From an uncultured Flavobacteriales bacterium (GTDB taxonomy: Bacteria > Bacteroidota > Bacteroidia > Flavobacteriales_D > Crocinitomicaceae): a stretch of DNA of 64,000 bases. Shown here one piece after another: positions 1 to 26,252 of the stretch. Location: positions 124,001-188,000 of the forward strand of contig CAJAII010000020.1 in assembly GCA_903939755.1 (NCBI GenBank), written 5' to 3'. The position numbers were made by a program, and so were the translations under genes. Below the pieces are notes generated by a model. That model had not been told where the DNA came from. It saw only the letters and a list, made by a program, of their open reading frames with translations, and searched no databases. Each line of letters starts with the position of its first letter. The stretch's first letter is position 1.

Positions 1-1527
1 TAAAGCGGGTAAGGTCACGAAACTATAGGTGCCCGTTTGAATGCTATACATTGTTAATGGAACAAAATACACAACGTTATTTGTAAAGGTTCCTGGAGGA
101 AATGAATTGATAAAACTAAGGTCATTTAAATCTGTCAAATTTCCATCTCCAGTAACTATTGAAACCAAACAAGGATCATCGGGAATGTCTAATCCTGAAG
201 CATTGGATTGTTGTGGTGTTAATGAAATGGTAGGAGGACAAGAATAGGCGAGCCAAACAATTCCAGGATCATAGGATGGTGCAGTAGGGTCATAGGTAGG
301 TGAACCTGGTGTAGTTGCCCCCACAATTTCACCAGGAACAGAAAAGTTATTGTTAGTTGTTACTGAATAAGAATCTCCGTAACATATTTTATTAATGGTT
401 GGCATTGGACTCAAGCTAGTCGTAAATGTTCCCATCATGGCCGAACAATTGCAAGAAGGTGGAATGTCATAAGTTAAGGTGGCGCTGCAACTTGGGTCTG
501 CTGAAAAAGAAGCGGTAACAGTACAACTTACGCCATTCGCTGGACCAGAAAATGAAAAATTGGAAGAACTTCCAAATGGGGCATTAAAAACTTGCTGGCC
601 ACCACATGAATTCACTAGGGTTAAGGTTCCCGATCCAGGTGCATTCGTGTAATTGATAGAACCAGTAATGGTATATTGATTCGTTATTGCATCACAATTG
701 GTCACATTTCCAGTGAAATTACTGAACGAACATGGATTAACTCCAGCGCAGGATGCAGGTGCATTGTATGTTTGAAGTGTGTTGCAATTCGCATTTGCTG
801 AAAAGGATGCGGTGACCGTGCAGGTCGAACCATTTGCGGGTAGTCCAGGTAAACTATAATTAATACTATTCCCAAAAGGGGCATTGAATACCTGAGAGCC
901 ACCGCAACTATTCGTGATGGTTAGCGTTCCCGAGCCAGGTGGATTTGTGATGCTTAACGTACCCGTTAATCCATACGTATTGGTGGCGGGATTGCAAGCA
1001 CTTGGGATAGCAGTAAAGCCGGTTACACCACAAATAAAGGAACAATCTGCTGAGCCACTTCCTCCTGTTTGCGAGAAAGAAATGGTACCGGCTGTATTTG
1101 AAAAATTGGTTAATAACAATATGTAGAATTGTCCAATTTGGGCATTTGGAATGGTAGCGGTTTCTACAGCGGCTGTAGAATAACTGCAATCAACAGTACT
1201 TCCTCCTGGAAATGTGCTTCCTCCACATCCTGCTGCAAGGGAGGTGAAAGGTCCCCATAAAGCAAAATCGACATCTATTCCTGTTCCTCCAGCAGTAGAT
1301 TGACTTATATTAAATGTCATTGGACCGTTTTGATCAATTTCCATAAAATACCAAACCGGATTAGGTGTCGATCCTAAACAACCAACAGCTCCTAAATCTT
1401 GTACATTTGTTGTATTTGGAAAGGAATAATTAGTGCCCGTGCAAAAAGGGGAAGCACCATTACATTGCGAAAAATAAACTTGTGATAACGACAAGCAAAA
1501 AGATAAGAAGAATATATTTTTTATCAA
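1..1527 (-). CDS. Secreted cysteine-containing surface protein with tandem repeats (partial)
   Basis: The reading frame stays open from a TTG start at 1527 to the left edge, so the C terminus is missing. An in-frame stop lies four codons upstream of that TTG, which leaves it as the only usual start. The product begins with a signal peptide (LIKNIFFLSFCLSLSQVYFS). An N-terminal domain of about 170 residues follows, with conserved Cys and the WYFMEID/GPF pattern common in large Bacteroidota adhesins. Then come two tandem repeats of about 88 residues, each carrying GSGTL, a NSCGG-QVFNAPFG motif, CTVTASFSA and a terminal SC. The protein is Thr/Asn/Gly-rich and surely extracellular. Such proteins usually end in a T9SS or gliding-associated C-terminal domain, but that part is outside the window. 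It lies 5 bp after the small exported protein upstream and is probably co-transcribed with it. The function is unknown; adhesion is an inference. Confidence 0.8.
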   Translation of the reverse strand, partial: MIKNIFFLSFCLSLSQVYFSQCNGASPFCTGTNYSFPNTTNVQDLGAVGCLGSTPNPVWYFMEIDQNGPMTFNISQSTAGGTGIDVDFALWGPFTSLAAGCGGSTFPGGSTVDCSYSTAAVETATIPNAQIGQFYILLLTNFSNTAGTISFSQTGGSGSADCSFICGVTGFTAIPSACNPATNTYGLTGTLSITNPPGSGTLTITNSCGGSQVFNAPFGNSINYSLPGLPANGSTCTVTASFSANANCNTLQTYNAPASCAGVNPCSFSNFTGNVTNCDAITNQYTITGSINYTNAPGSGTLTLVNSCGGQQVFNAPFGSSSNFSFSGPANGVSCTVTASFSADPSCSATLTYDIPPSCNCSAMMGTFTTSLSPMPTINKICYGDSYSVTTNNNFSVPGEIVGATTPGSPTYDPTAPSYDPGIVWLAYSCPPTISLTPQQSNASGLDIPDDPCLVSIVTGDGNLTDLNDLSFINSFPPGTFTNNVVYFVPLTMYSIQTGTYSFVTLPAL

Positions 1528-1532
1528 ACCGG

Positions 1533-1880
1533 TTATTTATCTAATTTATTTCGAAATTCTTTTTTAATCAGCTTTTTATTACTTAAGCCCCAGTCTTTTG
1601 CTAATTGTTTATTTTCTCCATGCGATTTTGCTTTATCGTAAAGTGGAAAAGAAGCAGGTATTTTTCCGTTAATAAATAAGGACTTCATTTTTTTATCGTC
1701 GAATAGGTATTTCCAAAAATGAACGTAGGGAACTTCGCTTGCGATTGCTTTTTCATCTTTTTTATCGATAATAACCACCTTTTTGTTTAGGTCTTTTTTT
1801 GAATTTGTTTGGGTGATTTGACTGTAAGTGGTTGTGTCAAAAAAAGAAAGAAGGGTAATAATTAAGTATAATTTGTTCAT
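1533..1880 (-). CDS. Small exported hypothetical protein
   Basis: The protein has 115 residues when started at the ATG at 1880, which places a clean signal peptide (MNKLYLIITLLSFFDTTTYS) at the N terminus. An upstream in-frame ATG at 1934 would add 18 residues before that signal and is less likely. The mature part is short, Lys-rich and basic, with an aromatic patch (PYVHFWKYLF) and a C-terminal basic helix. I recognise no family. It ends 5 bp before the repeat-rich secreted protein, so the two probably form an operon in which it could be an accessory periplasmic factor; that role is only a guess. Confidence 0.6.
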   Translation of the reverse strand: MNKLYLIITLLSFFDTTTYSQITQTNSKKDLNKKVVIIDKKDEKAIASEVPYVHFWKYLFDDKKMKSLFINGKIPASFPLYDKAKSHGENKQLAKDWGLSNKKLIKKEFRNKLDK

Positions 1881-2007
1881 TATAAAAATTTGTTTCTTGA
1901 CGATAAAGATAATCAATAGTTGCCGAAATAACATGTTATTTTTTTTTAATTTCTCAACTTATCAACTTGTAATTTTTAATATTGTAAAAATAACACTTAA
2001 TACATAG

Positions 2008-2970
2008 TTGAAATTGTTTGGTAAAATTAGAAAAATAAGTTACTATCTTCCTGGACCACCACTTTCTATTGATAGCAATAGCAATAATCGCTATTATGCC
2101 AGTCAAGATGAAATTGGTTCTGATCTTGCCTTTAAAGCGGTATTAAAGCTCTTCAATGAATATCCAGAAATAGATAAGCTCGATATTGATTTTCTTATTG
2201 TTTCAACGCTTGTTTTAGATTATAATTCGCCAACAACTGCAAGTGTTTTACATCATAAATTAGGATTGTCTTCAACTTGTGGTACAATTGATTTACCTCA
2301 AGGCTGTTCAGGATTTTTGTATAGCTTAAGTGTTGCAGAAGCAATGATTTCTGCTGGGAATGCGAGGAATGTGTTAATCTTATTAGGGGAAGTGCCTACA
2401 AAAGCAATTCATAGTGAGGATACCGTATTACGATCTATTTTTGGTGATGCTGGTGCCGCTATTGTTGTTTCGGAAAATAATACTAAAGCCATTGGAAAGT
2501 TTACATTTGCAACTTTTGGGAATGGATTTGATTTTTTAAAGGTGGAACGCGGAGGAGGTCGCAATCCAATAGATAAGGCATGGTTAAATAAATATTCCGA
2601 TCAAGTGAATCAATTGCCTTTTGGACGTATCGAAATGAATGGGCTGGAAGTGCTGCGCTTTGCTTTAAAGGAAATCCCTGGGTTTTTGGAACAGACATTA
2701 GTCAAAAATGGCTTAACAATTTCAGAAATAGATTTTTTCATTTTTCATCAAGCAAGTGCATTGATTTTGAAATCTCTTCAGCGAAAATGCAATATTCCCG
2801 AACATAAATTCATTTCTAATTTTGAAGAAGTTGGCAATACTGTTTCATGTTCTATTCCCATTGCACTAGAAACAGCAGCAGCGCTTGGCAATTTTAAAAA
2901 AGGAGATAAGATAGTATTACTCGGTTTTGGGATTGGTTTTTCTTGTATAGGAACCGTAATTGAATGGTAG
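2008..2970 (+). CDS. 3-oxoacyl-ACP synthase III-type ketosynthase (first copy)
   Basis: This 320-residue thiolase-fold protein resembles FabH. It would carry out decarboxylative Claisen condensation of a starter acyl-CoA with malonyl-ACP. The catalytic triad is readable: Cys100 in PQGCSGF, His247 in FHQAS and Asn277 in the EVGNTVSC segment. The C-terminal LLGFGIGFS glycine-rich strand is also typical. Translation probably starts at TTG 2008, directly after an in-frame stop; a second TTG two codons on is possible. It is the first gene of a compact run with a free-standing ACP, a second KAS III, a reductase, a glycosyltransferase and an acyltransferase. It diverges from housekeeping FabH, for example in lacking the usual NTSSAS sequence, so a specialised role in acylating a glycan or metabolite is more likely than general fatty acid synthesis. 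That role is an inference. Confidence 0.85.
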   Translation: MKLFGKIRKISYYLPGPPLSIDSNSNNRYYASQDEIGSDLAFKAVLKLFNEYPEIDKLDIDFLIVSTLVLDYNSPTTASVLHHKLGLSSTCGTIDLPQGCSGFLYSLSVAEAMISAGNARNVLILLGEVPTKAIHSEDTVLRSIFGDAGAAIVVSENNTKAIGKFTFATFGNGFDFLKVERGGGRNPIDKAWLNKYSDQVNQLPFGRIEMNGLEVLRFALKEIPGFLEQTLVKNGLTISEIDFFIFHQASALILKSLQRKCNIPEHKFISNFEEVGNTVSCSIPIALETAAALGNFKKGDKIVLLGFGIGFSCIGTVIEW

Positions 2971-2989
2971 AAAAATGTATATTTGACTT

Positions 2990-3241
2990 ATGGAAATAGA
3001 TGATTTTATTAAAGCGATTGAAGAAGAGTTTGACAATCTAAATCCAGGAGATGTGTCTCCGAATAGCGTGTTTCGTGATATGGAGGGTTGGAGCAGTATG
3101 CATGCGCTTATTTTTGTTGCATTGATTGATTCAAAGTATGATGTTCTTCTAAATGGTGAAGAATTGAAATCGTGTGTCACCATTAACGATTTATTTGATA
3201 TTACATGCTTAAAATTAAACGGTGGCGCAGCTAAGGCTTAA
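2990..3241 (+). CDS. Stand-alone acyl carrier protein
   Basis: This is an 83-residue acidic helical protein. The motif GWSSMHAL (residues 33-40) corresponds to the W-D-S-L signature of carrier proteins in saccharide loci, and Ser36 is the expected 4'-phosphopantetheine attachment site. A later TINDLFD segment matches the fourth helix. It is not the housekeeping AcpP, which has a DSLD motif. The gene sits between two KAS III genes and overlaps the second by 20 bp, which indicates translational coupling. The likely role is to carry the acyl intermediate made by the flanking ketosynthases and reduced by the SDR enzyme. Confidence 0.8.
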   Translation: MEIDDFIKAIEEEFDNLNPGDVSPNSVFRDMEGWSSMHALIFVALIDSKYDVLLNGEELKSCVTINDLFDITCLKLNGGAAKA

Positions 3242-21927: not shown

Positions 21928-21960
21928 ATAACAGAAACTAGTCCGCTAGCGGGAAACAGC

Positions 21961-21989
21961 GAGAAATCCGAAAATCGATAAGAGTAGGA
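21961..21989 (+). repeat. 29-bp leader shared by the two repeat-protein genes, copy 1
   Basis: The block from gagaaatccg to agtagga is identical to 22906-22934. It lies 50 bp before the ATG in this copy and 51 bp before it in the other. A CCGCTAGCGG palindrome sits just upstream here only. It could be a remnant of duplication, or a promoter or leader element. Confidence 0.7.
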
Positions 21990-22010
21990 ATAAAATTTAA
22001 AAATTAAAAT

Positions 22011-22346
22011 ATGAGAAATTTATTGATTTTAGCAACTATGTTGCTCACGTTTGGGTTTATCAATGCACAGAAAATATTTAGTGTCTCAAATCAAGCATAT
22101 GCTGATGTTAAAGTTTTTGTTGTGGATAATCAGGCCTACGCAGATTTGTTGGTTTATAAAGTATCCAATCAAGCTTATGCAGGGAAAAATGATGGTAAAT
22201 GGTACTTCGTAGATAATCAAGCATACGCTGACAAGAAAATATTTTTCGTGAGTAATCAAGCCTATGCAGATTTGAAAATATTTTTTGTAGATAATCAAGC
22301 TTATGCGGGTTGGAAAAATTCCGCTAAGAAAAGTTTGATGTATTAA
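22011..22346 (+). CDS. Exported 13-residue-repeat protein, NQAYA type (DUF6150-like)
   Basis: The 111-residue protein has a signal peptide ending near INAQ (residue 20) and then six repeats. NQAYA occurs at residues 27, 40, 53, 69, 82 and 95, that is with 13-residue spacing and one 3-residue insertion at GKNDGKW. The residue before NQAYA alternates strictly Ser, Asp, Ser, Asp, Ser, Asp. Repeats read V-[SD]-NQAYA-D-x-K-[VI]-[FY], which fits short beta strands in a solenoid or ribbon. It resembles the Bacteroidota family I recall as DUF6150, not checked. All six 15-base stretches coding for NQAYA differ in codons. A paralogue at 22957 has RESYA at the same six positions. Confidence 0.85.
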   Translation: MRNLLILATMLLTFGFINAQKIFSVSNQAYADVKVFVVDNQAYADLLVYKVSNQAYAGKNDGKWYFVDNQAYADKKIFFVSNQAYADLKIFFVDNQAYAGWKNSAKKSLMY

Positions 22347-22449
22347 ACTAGCTTGTCTTTCAGTTATAAATTCAATTAAATTAAATAATCAAGGCCTAAT
22401 CTGCTTAGTCAAATGAGAAGGGATTTAAATTAAACCAAAAAAAAGTAAA

Positions 22450-22830
22450 ATGAAAAAAATATTTACCCTGGCACTAATGATGCTGTTTTTTGCAGTTGCT
22501 AATGCACAATCTAATGCAGTTGCAAAATTTATTATCGTTGAAATAATAGATGAGGATGACAATCCTACATCTGAAATATACGTTCAATACAATGAAAAGA
22601 AAATCCTAATAGAAACACTTCATGGTAATGCAAACATTGTTGATAAAAGTGAATTTTATTTAGGGGTTCCTAAAACTGCAATTTCAGCTTGCGGTGCTTG
22701 GTGGGCAGGAGCAGGGGATTATTATTATATCGTTCCTTCAGTTAAAGGTGTTAGTCTTTACCATGGTTGGCAAGATGAAGAACAAGAAGATGAAGGTTTT
22801 CATTGGGAATTTGTTCAAGAATTAAATTAG
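22450..22830 (+). CDS. Small exported hypothetical protein between the repeat paralogues
   Basis: The 126-residue protein has a signal peptide (MKKIFTLALMMLFFAVANAQ) and a mature acidic domain of about 105 residues. It starts with a strand-turn-strand (AKFIIVEIIDEDDNPTSEIYVQYNEKK, read in parts), has a hydrophobic GAWWAGAGDYYYIV segment, and ends in a very acidic tail (DEEQEDEGF). One Cys is present. I recognise no family. It lies between the two 13-residue-repeat genes on the same strand, so it may be their partner or simply was caught in the duplication. Confidence 0.65.
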   Translation: MKKIFTLALMMLFFAVANAQSNAVAKFIIVEIIDEDDNPTSEIYVQYNEKKILIETLHGNANIVDKSEFYLGVPKTAISACGAWWAGAGDYYYIVPSVKGVSLYHGWQDEEQEDEGFHWEFVQELN

Positions 22831-22905
22831 AATTGTTCTATTAATTATTTCGTAAAATAATAAGTAGAGCCAAGAAAAAATCTCCACTCTGGCGGAAAAT
22901 ATACC

Positions 22906-22934
22906 GAGAAATCCGAAAATCGATAAGAGTAGGA
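22906..22934 (+). repeat. 29-bp leader shared by the two repeat-protein genes, copy 2
   Basis: Identical to 21961-21989 and at the same distance from its ATG. Outside this block and the first 27 coding bases, the two upstream regions diverge. Confidence 0.7.
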
Positions 22935-22956
22935 TTAAAAATTTATATATTACAAT

Positions 22957-23292
22957 ATGAGAAATTTATTGATTTTAGCAACTATTTTGCTAATGTGTGG
23001 AGCATTTAATGCTCAAAAGGTATATGCAGTTAGCCGAGAGTCTTATGCAGATGTAAAAGTATTTGTTGTTGATCGTGAGAGCTACGCTGATTTATTAGTT
23101 TATAAAGTGGATCGCGAAAGTTATGCGGGCAAAAATGATGGTAAATGGTTTTTTGTAGATCGTGAATCATATGCTCAAAAAAAAATATTTTTCGTAGATA
23201 GGGAGTCCTATGCGGATATAAAAATTTATTTTGTAGACCGCGAATCTTATGCCGGTTGGAGAAATTCCGCAAAGAAAAGTTTGATGTATTAA
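22957..23292 (+). CDS. Exported 13-residue-repeat protein, RESYA type (DUF6150-like)
   Basis: This 111-residue protein is the same length as the paralogue at 22011 and aligns without gaps. Six RESYA motifs stand exactly where the other has NQAYA (residues 27, 40, 53, 69, 82, 95). The preceding residue is Ser once and then Asp five times. The scaffold (VKVFVVD, LLVYKV, GKNDGKW, NSAKKSLMY) is nearly identical. The Ser codon in RESYA is tct, agc, agt, tca, tcc, tct, using both unlinked serine codon families, and Arg is cga, cgt, cgc, cgt, agg, cgc. The signal peptide ends near FNAQ. Function is unknown. Confidence 0.85.
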   Translation: MRNLLILATILLMCGAFNAQKVYAVSRESYADVKVFVVDRESYADLLVYKVDRESYAGKNDGKWFFVDRESYAQKKIFFVDRESYADIKIYFVDRESYAGWRNSAKKSLMY

Positions 23293-23487
23293 ACTAGCTT
23301 GTCGAACATTGCGACTAACAATTTTTGAAGCAATGACAATCAATTTGCGAGAAAGTTCGCCGGTAGCCTACGGAAAATCAACTTGATTTTGAAGAATAAA
23401 TTCGGAAAGGGTGATAATACGAGACTTCTGGGTAAATTATTCACTGCAAATATCGTAAAATGCCGTCTGAATTCTTCTAGTTATTAA

Positions 23488-25127: not shown

Positions 25128-26252
25128 CTAATTGAAGCTAACCTTAGAAATCCTCAGAATTCTTCCATTGGTACTCGAAGCATAAACAAATTTGTTATCC
25201 GAACAAAGGCTGAAGCAATTCTCATTGCTTAGTTGAATCCAAGTAGTACCATTGTCCTTCGAATAATCGATTCCATTAGTTCCGCACGAATAATAAACGC
25301 CATCTGTATAGTAAACGCAGGAACGGTATCCGAATGGTCCACTAGTGGAAGCGTTCCAAGTGATTCCGCCATCTTTGGTGATGAAACAAACATTTTCACG
25401 TGAATTTGGCGCTAGGTAATCACCGCCAACTACGATTCCGTTGTTAGTGTCTTTCATGGCTAATGAAAAAGCACCGCTTGCATTACTTTTCTTAAAAGGA
25501 AGTTCGCTTTGAATCCATGTTTGACCTTTGTCTTTGCTCCTGAAAAAGCGTGATTTTTCTCCTCCAGAAACAAAATAATAAACGCCATTTCTAATTTGAA
25601 CAGTACTGCCACTGGCAGCAAATCCAGCTTCTCCATCGAAAGAGGGAAGAGTAGGGGTGATTCTCTCCCAATGTTTCAAATCGTTTGAGTGAAATAAAGA
25701 AAATTTATTTCCAACTGGATCGCCCATCACGAATGCCTCTTTATTTTCTATAGCCATTCCATCAAGAAATAACTGTGGTTCTAATTCTAAAGTGATTAAA
25801 TTAATCCGCTTCATAGCGTTTCCAAAGCGGCTTAACTTAAGAATGCTGCTGTAGTCGGCACTTTGCATGGCATAAATGGAATGCTTGTGCAGCGCAATAT
25901 CCCTGATTTCAGGAAAGGTATCCTTCGGATTAAGCGATTTGCTTTTTCCATTTTTGAGATCGTAGCGAATTACTTCTCCGTTGTTATTGCCTAGATAAAT
26001 AAAGTGGCCTTTTACTGCTATACCTCTAGCATGTATCGGTTTATTGCAATATGGCAATATTGCAATTTCTTGTGCGAAGAAAGATGGCAACTGAAGGGAG
26101 AAGAACAGAATAAGTAGGTATTTTACTGCTATACCTCTCGCAAGTATCGGTTTATTGCAATATGGCAATATTACAATTTCTTGTGCGAAGTAATACGGGG
26201 AATAAAAAGAGGTTAAAAAAGTTGCAAAAAGAATGAATAGGTGTTTAATCAT
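25128..26252 (-). CDS. Exported BNR/YCF48-like protein with duplicated N terminus
   Basis: The 374-residue protein has Asp-box-like repeats (KDKGQTWIQ, KDGGITWN, KDNGTTWIQ) that suggest a beta-propeller from about residue 75 on. The N terminus is odd. A signal peptide (MIKHLFILFATFLTSFYS) leads to AQEIVILPYCNKPILARG, and then a second signal-like stretch (YLLILFFSLQLPSFFAQ) leads to AQEIAILPYCNKPIHARG. The 70-bp coding repeats (26010-26079 and 26121-26190) differ at three positions and are 111 bp apart, so the frame is kept. GTA stands where the inner copy should have its start. There is no T9SS sorting domain. Maturation may need two cuts or leave a membrane segment. Confidence 0.75.
   Translation of the reverse strand: MIKHLFILFATFLTSFYSPYYFAQEIVILPYCNKPILARGIAVKYLLILFFSLQLPSFFAQEIAILPYCNKPIHARGIAVKGHFIYLGNNNGEVIRYDLKNGKSKSLNPKDTFPEIRDIALHKHSIYAMQSADYSSILKLSRFGNAMKRINLITLELEPQLFLDGMAIENKEAFVMGDPVGNKFSLFHSNDLKHWERITPTLPSFDGEAGFAASGSTVQIRNGVYYFVSGGEKSRFFRSKDKGQTWIQSELPFKKSNASGAFSLAMKDTNNGIVVGGDYLAPNSRENVCFITKDGGITWNASTSGPFGYRSCVYYTDGVYYSCGTNGIDYSKDNGTTWIQLSNENCFSLCSDNKFVYASSTNGRILRISKVSFN
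26010..26079. repeat. 70-bp direct repeat within the BNR gene (inner copy)
   Basis: Matches 26121-26190 at 67 of 70 positions. Codes for the segment AVK-to-FAQ of the inner N-terminal copy, read on the minus strand. Confidence 0.85.
26121..26190. repeat. 70-bp direct repeat within the BNR gene (outer copy)
   Basis: The outer copy lies nearer the ATG at 26252. The sequences beyond each copy, which encode the two signal peptides, are not alike. Simple tandem slippage is therefore less likely than recombination between related genes. Confidence 0.85.

Follow-up and report, generated by a model that had tools for sequence, protein, structure and literature searches.

Matched repeat motifs in two exported DUF6150 paralogues: a tyrosine register rule and a candidate packing ladder

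How do two paralogous proteins come to carry one short motif at six places, and a different one at the same six places, with no mixture of the two? The question is posed by two plus-strand open reading frames (ORFs) in a 64,000-nucleotide stretch of contig CAJAII010000020.1 from an uncultured Flavobacteriales bacterium (hereafter the window; Table 1). Both encode 111-residue proteins, with signal peptides ending in NAQ, that align without gaps at 70% identity. The first has NQAYA at residues 27, 40, 53, 69, 82 and 95; the second has RESYA at the same six positions, without exception. The two differ at 18 of 30 motif residues and 9 of 49 scaffold residues, at 5 of the 20 residues of the signal peptide and at 1 of 12 C-terminal residues. 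The pattern had been noticed in a preliminary description of this DNA – two exported repeat proteins, six unmixed sites per gene and a different ladder of motifs throughout each paralogue – and to that extent the description stands.

Table 1. Coordinates of the DUF6150 pair and associated elements in the window
Feature	Position	Strand	Basis or remark
DUF6150 gene, NQAYA type (P0001)	22011..22346	+	111 aa, signal peptide; Pfam PF19647 E 1.1e-28; AlphaFold2 pLDDT 91.6
DUF6150 gene, RESYA type (P0002)	22957..23292	+	111 aa, signal peptide; Pfam PF19647 E 4.4e-24; AlphaFold2 mature part pLDDT 97.1
5' UTR module, copy 1 (CGAGAAATCCGAAAATCGATAAGAGTAGGA...)	21960..21998	+	39 nt, 95% identical to 22905-22943
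5' UTR module, copy 2	22905..22943	+	nucleotide match to copy 1
Signal-peptide segment MRNLLILATMLLTFGFINAQ = shared leader	22011..22070	+	also heads unrelated mature proteins
NQAYA repeat 1	22089..22103	+	sequence
NQAYA repeat 2	22128..22142	+	sequence
NQAYA repeat 3	22167..22181	+	sequence
NQAYA repeat 4	22215..22229	+	sequence
NQAYA repeat 5	22254..22268	+	sequence
NQAYA repeat 6	22293..22307	+	sequence
Shared 3' end (WKNSAKKSLMY, stop, ACTAGCTTGTC), copy 1	22310..22357	+	90-95% identical to 23256-23303
Unrelated 126-aa exported protein between DUF6150 genes	22450..22830	+	no Pfam family match; leader = that of a 166-aa protein in relatives
RESYA mature core	23017..23292	+	99.3% identical to L063 core; L063 leader 78% identical
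RESYA repeat 1	23035..23049	+	sequence
RESYA repeat 2	23074..23088	+	sequence
RESYA repeat 3	23113..23127	+	sequence
RESYA repeat 4	23161..23175	+	sequence
RESYA repeat 5	23200..23214	+	sequence
RESYA repeat 6	23239..23253	+	sequence
Shared 3' end, copy 2	23256..23303	+	matches copy 1

Motif and tyrosine rules across DUF6150

Both proteins belong to DUF6150 (PF19647), scoring 99.5 (NQAYA) and 84.8 bits (RESYA) against a curated cut-off of 27 bits and covering positions 6–97 and 7–97 of the 98-position profile. A literature search on DUF6150 returned neither a function nor a description of the family, searches for the KYKSEAD motif and for concerted evolution gave nothing, PHROGs and NCBIfam yielded no meaningful match, and a plasmid collection yielded none. 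The genome itself has three copies; at the scale of the phylum 20 of 395 genomes gave matches, within the bacterial family 138 of 240 did, and named contigs supplied 80 loci. The homologues were tabulated as 208 distinct proteins, with statistics computed on two sets: 62 non-redundant proteins for motif identity and 121 representatives for the aromatic rule. Motif types among the 208 include YESQA, YENQA, YESRA, YKSDA, SKYDA, AEYKA, ADYKA, SEYSA, QSYNA, DKYN[V/C/A/L] and VASRA in addition to NQAYA and RESYA.

That the motif is matched within a protein and differs between proteins is a rule of the whole family, and the uniformity goes far beyond chance: six identical tetrapeptides (motif positions x1 to x4) are present in 18 of the 62 non-redundant homologues, compared with 0.013 on average after reshuffling of the motifs among proteins. 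Excess identity – that of repeats of the same protein minus that of different repeats in different proteins – is 0.47, 0.37, 0.50 and 0.58 at x1 to x4, and lies between -0.01 and 0.13 at all non-motif repeat positions (n=62). Among some 200 homologues, these non-motif positions are either repeat-specific or conserved throughout; at strand offsets -7, -5 and -3, the same repeat is 0.81–0.87 identical between proteins. More than one kind of tetrapeptide is nonetheless found within 44 of the 62 homologues, the mixing being mostly at x2, a slack position with a within-protein identity of 0.66 compared with 0.89–0.94 at x1, x3 and x4. Of the proposal that motifs are uniform within and varied between proteins, the family-wide excess at x1–x4 survives; strict uniformity, against which the preliminary description had itself named mixed motifs as the telling evidence, does not.

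A second regularity concerns aromatic residues. Exactly one is present in 707 of the 726 tetrapeptides from the 121 representatives (97%, against 59% with shuffled columns); it is nearly always tyrosine and stands at motif position 1, 3 or 4. The place most used is x1 for 86 proteins, x3 for 28 and x4 for 6; the remaining protein (of the VASRA type) has none, and a single register runs through all six repeats in 111 of the 121. NQAYA and RESYA both use the rare x4 register, and one homologue, L070, combines SQSYA, SESYA and SASYA and looks intermediate between them. Because a few proteins (the VASRA protein of L064, L052 and L160) mix registers or lack aromatics, the register constraint is not absolute. 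This one-tyrosine-per-repeat, same-register rule is new; no earlier description of it, or of the motif rule, was found in the literature searched. It offers a simple, testable example of repeat residues that must change in step, with no gene conversion involved.

Several arrangements of the repeats or genes were recorded besides. Adjacent DUF6150 pairs at L145, L146, L059 and L135 have Tyr at x1 in the first gene and at x3 in the second. In genome G041, of the same genus, a minus-strand ORF (L028, 1419–2136) encodes five uninterrupted DUF6150-like repeats with no signal peptide, after which come a Ser-rich linker, a hydrophobic segment and a C-terminal part judged by eye to be SH3-like. Adjoining a DUF6150 gene, a secreted 134-residue protein (L060:961–1365, minus strand; also L067:5457–5861), with no Pfam family, carries TSFPDIKV repeats on the plan seen in DUF6150: three repeats, a GLW insert and three repeats.

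Exchange of cores, leaders and genomic neighbours

The two genes of the window are nearly identical in the 5' UTR and the opening ~50 bp of coding sequence, and again over the final ~36 bp of coding sequence plus ~14 bp beyond the stop, while synonymous sites in their core are saturated (dS about 1.2–1.5); near-identical ends on a saturated core make the pair a mosaic. At locus L063, the slot after the 126-residue protein holds the same RESYA core, which differs from that of the window gene (genome G000) at 2 of 88 same-residue codons, under a leader only 78% identical to that of the window gene; the neighbouring 1132-residue gene differs between window and L063 at 250 of 979 such codons. At L064, a VASRA core fills that slot, with RESYA elsewhere under another leader. 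Taken together, the core and leader identities of the window, L063 and L064 suggest that cores and leaders recombined recently between species. Where the preliminary description saw a whole-set switch between two paralogues, the sequences indicate that the NQAYA–RESYA difference did not arise in situ in this genome, and that two old cores came to lie under shared leaders and tails. A scaffold tree built without the motif columns has 5 of 104 inner branches starred, and its 38 motif-class changes are only indicative, since the scaffold columns are too few to resolve it.

The leader is itself a widespread module. Of 86 genomes of the genus, 28 match a 125-bp leader segment, in some of the weaker cases over a short stretch, and the module of 5' UTR and signal-peptide DNA occurs at 21960–22070 and 22905–23016 in the window and at L064, L228, L230, L231 and L243. 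Besides DUF6150 cores it heads unrelated mature proteins – β-flower repeats (PF21785, PF21786), a bactofilin-like repeat, an SH3-domain protein and non-repeat proteins – and many of these leader-sharing proteins are tandem-repeat (β-flower) proteins with near-uniform repeats. That one leader stands before unrelated secreted repeat proteins suggests that these bacteria assemble their secreted repertoire from modules. L064 also presents a second leader-sharing case, with two unrelated secreted proteins (1582–2082 and 2191–2571) under a common second leader (MKKIFTLALMMLFFAV). In the window, a minus-strand ORF (25128–26252) contains a tandem duplication of ~111 bp at 25998–26211 that doubles its signal peptide and first mature residues; its relative at L064 has a single copy of the segment.

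The third DUF6150 gene of the genome, of the YKSDA type (L008; locus 1459–3032), directly precedes pnuC (PF04973) and an SCO1 gene; pnuC serves nicotinamide riboside uptake. This arrangement, usually with a gene for a NadR-like AAA_28 kinase, is present at 30 of 213 loci, a figure that includes a few second copies of the same contig, and all but two of these lie in the genus, as read from genome handles. The slot adjoining pnuC carries YKSD, AEYK, YESQ, YENQ, YASQ or YSSQ ladders, and some genomes have two tandem copies there (YKSD with ADYK; YESQ with AEYK); the type of ladder can therefore change while the genomic context stays. This position suggests that the pnuC-linked copies act as an exported accessory near vitamin (nicotinamide riboside) uptake, and the cellular role of DUF6150 is probably that of an exported accessory.

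Predicted fold and competing accounts of the ladder

AlphaFold2 models of the NQAYA protein (72 sequences) and the mature RESYA protein (66 sequences; all five models at a pLDDT of at least 95) agree in predicting, for each repeat, a strand and then a helix of one turn (HHH) on the motif. When the models were compared by Foldseek with 350,542 PDB chains, the best four matches of both were all Q9PR55. Chain 8iwa_D aligns with the mature model at a TM-score of 0.65 (target) or 0.56 (query), an rmsd of 2.5 Å and a probability of 1.00, at E-values that are weak for both models (0.0085 for this alignment and 0.0021 for the other); the other Q9PR55 chains were worse. Q9PR55 was absent from PDB sequence matches up to an E-value of 10, the queries being P0001-type profiles, a divergent homologue from the same genus, a KYKSEA-type homologue, a made-up consensus and a diverse profile; a viral structure library gave no match. 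Q9PR55 was predicted to form a 7_1 knot, and its homologue P73136 a 5_1 knot (PMC9278004), and the 7_1 knot has been confirmed by X-ray crystallography (PMC11223836, PMC13352647). By resemblance to this fold a knot is predicted for DUF6150, which may be a torus-knotted family.

The account that we favour, with modest confidence, joins packing, register, a Q9PR55-like fold and core recombination. The six 13-residue repeats, three on either side of a GKNDGKW insert and each with a short strand leading into a one-turn motif helix, would come to lie in equivalent places of the folded protein, where the motif residues of one repeat would pack against those of others, the ladder being anchored by one tyrosine per repeat at motif position 1, 3 or 4. 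Such packing would work only if all six repeats shared one register and had compatible neighbours, so that motifs would be matched within a protein and different solutions (YESQA, SKYDA, NQAYA, RESYA) reached in different proteins. New types would then spread as whole mature cores, recombined under shared leaders and tails. Family membership, the motif statistics, the tyrosine rule and the exchange of cores are shown by the sequences and the fold is predicted, whereas the stacking of side chains between repeats, like the knot, is inferred; among proteins with mixed motifs, no fixed repeat spacing gave best agreement, as stacking of particular repeats would. The stronger version – a widespread, torus-knotted exported family with an obligatory same-register tyrosine ladder, diversified by recombination of complete cores under an interchangeable leader shared with other secreted repeat proteins – we put forward tentatively, as a possibility that is rather less probable than not.

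The ladder might instead serve recognition, the six motifs forming a repeated binding surface (for a glycan, a nucleotide or a partner protein) with its own specificity in each paralogue, and exchange of cores being favoured by the diversity of specificities so obtained. Co-resident paralogues do differ (NQAYA and RESYA in the window with YKSDA at L008; NQAYA, VASRA and RESYA at L064), RESYA cores appear to have moved recently between species, and further secreted repeat proteins begin with the same leader module. Yet, with six different ladders found beside pnuC, the ladder is not tied to the role of that slot – a result that also tells against the earlier proposal that the ladder defines a ligand – and a residue that binds should stay in one position, whereas the tyrosine shifts among x1, x3 and x4. 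We regard this account as unlikely. Doubtful to a greater degree is self-recognition or hetero-pairing, in which adjacent paralogues with different ladders would associate, either each with its own kind or one with the other: the recurring adjacent pairs YKSD then ADYK, YESQ then AEYK, and YRSD then SKYD, all with Tyr at x1 and then x3, speak for it, but independent cases are few, the window pair combines x4 with x4, and most homologues are single genes.

Two further accounts dispense with packing and are addressed by the codons. As had been described, the coding stretches of the six motifs all differ within each gene when five codons are counted (NQAYA repeats 3 and 6 only in the last Ala codon), and serine in the RESYA gene is encoded by AGC/AGT in repeats 2 and 3 and by TCN in the other four; of 114 genes in which every repeat has Ser at x3, 55 mix AGY and TCN. 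In eight NQAYA orthologues all motif residues are kept while the codons drift. Between-repeat codon identity is 0.52 in the NQAYA gene (0.50 expected), 0.28 in the RESYA gene (0.38 expected) and 0.520 among the family representatives (0.455 expected from codon usage), so that sharing beyond codon usage is absent from the window genes and slight across the family, where it comes mainly from x3 and x4. Over-dispersion of codons as a guard against recombination was considered and dropped, being present in the RESYA gene but absent in the family as a whole.

Concerted evolution, by which gene conversion or unequal crossing-over would copy one motif over the other repeats, could appeal to that slight family-wide excess. 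It is nevertheless very improbable, given the codon identity of the window genes, at or below expectation, and the many genes of mixed serine codons; moreover, the strand positions are repeat-specific and conserved between proteins, which excludes the copying of whole repeats as the cause. The simplest reading is selection on the residues, as had been concluded from the codons and as codon drift, repeat-specific strands and mixed serine codons all bear out. Least probable is conserved ancestry alone, each lineage being a freshly amplified repeat with an undiverged motif, because – for all the purifying selection on the motif within the NQAYA lineage – a single six-repeat scaffold with repeat-specific strand residues is common to all lineages, which makes the amplification older than the motif differences, and intermediates such as L070 show change at one motif position at a time.

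Relation to known knots, solenoids and β-flowers

The repetition of identical residues along a protein is familiar from β-solenoids, in which Asn ladders and ice-binding TxT arrays stack like residues in successive repeats, and this idea DUF6150 would share. It differs in that the motif forms a one-turn helix in the models, and not a strand, and in having only six repeats, arranged as three plus three with an insert. A fibre or an ice-binding β-solenoid, and with it the fibre, ice-like or mineral surface considered earlier, finds no support: the motif is predicted to be a helical turn in a small, 92-residue domain, no solenoid was among the structural matches of either model, and the best solved match is Q9PR55.

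The β-flower families PF21784–PF21786, antiparallel β-barrels (PMC10584680), resemble the DUF6150 pair in being small, secreted and built of near-uniform tandem repeats, some of them under the same leader DNA. Their repeat sequence is different, and the window proteins have no match to the three profiles.

The closest structural counterpart of both models is Q9PR55 (PDB 8IWA, 8IWB and 8JRM), a protein of similar length with no detectable sequence relation to DUF6150 (~20% identity in the structural alignment). Unlike the torus knots Q9PR55 and P73136, the DUF6150 proteins described here have signal peptides. If the fold holds, the small knotted set of Q9PR55 and P73136 would gain a large natural family of hundreds of sequences, whose readable repeat code and naturally swapped ladders would open the folding and evolution of complex knots to comparative study.
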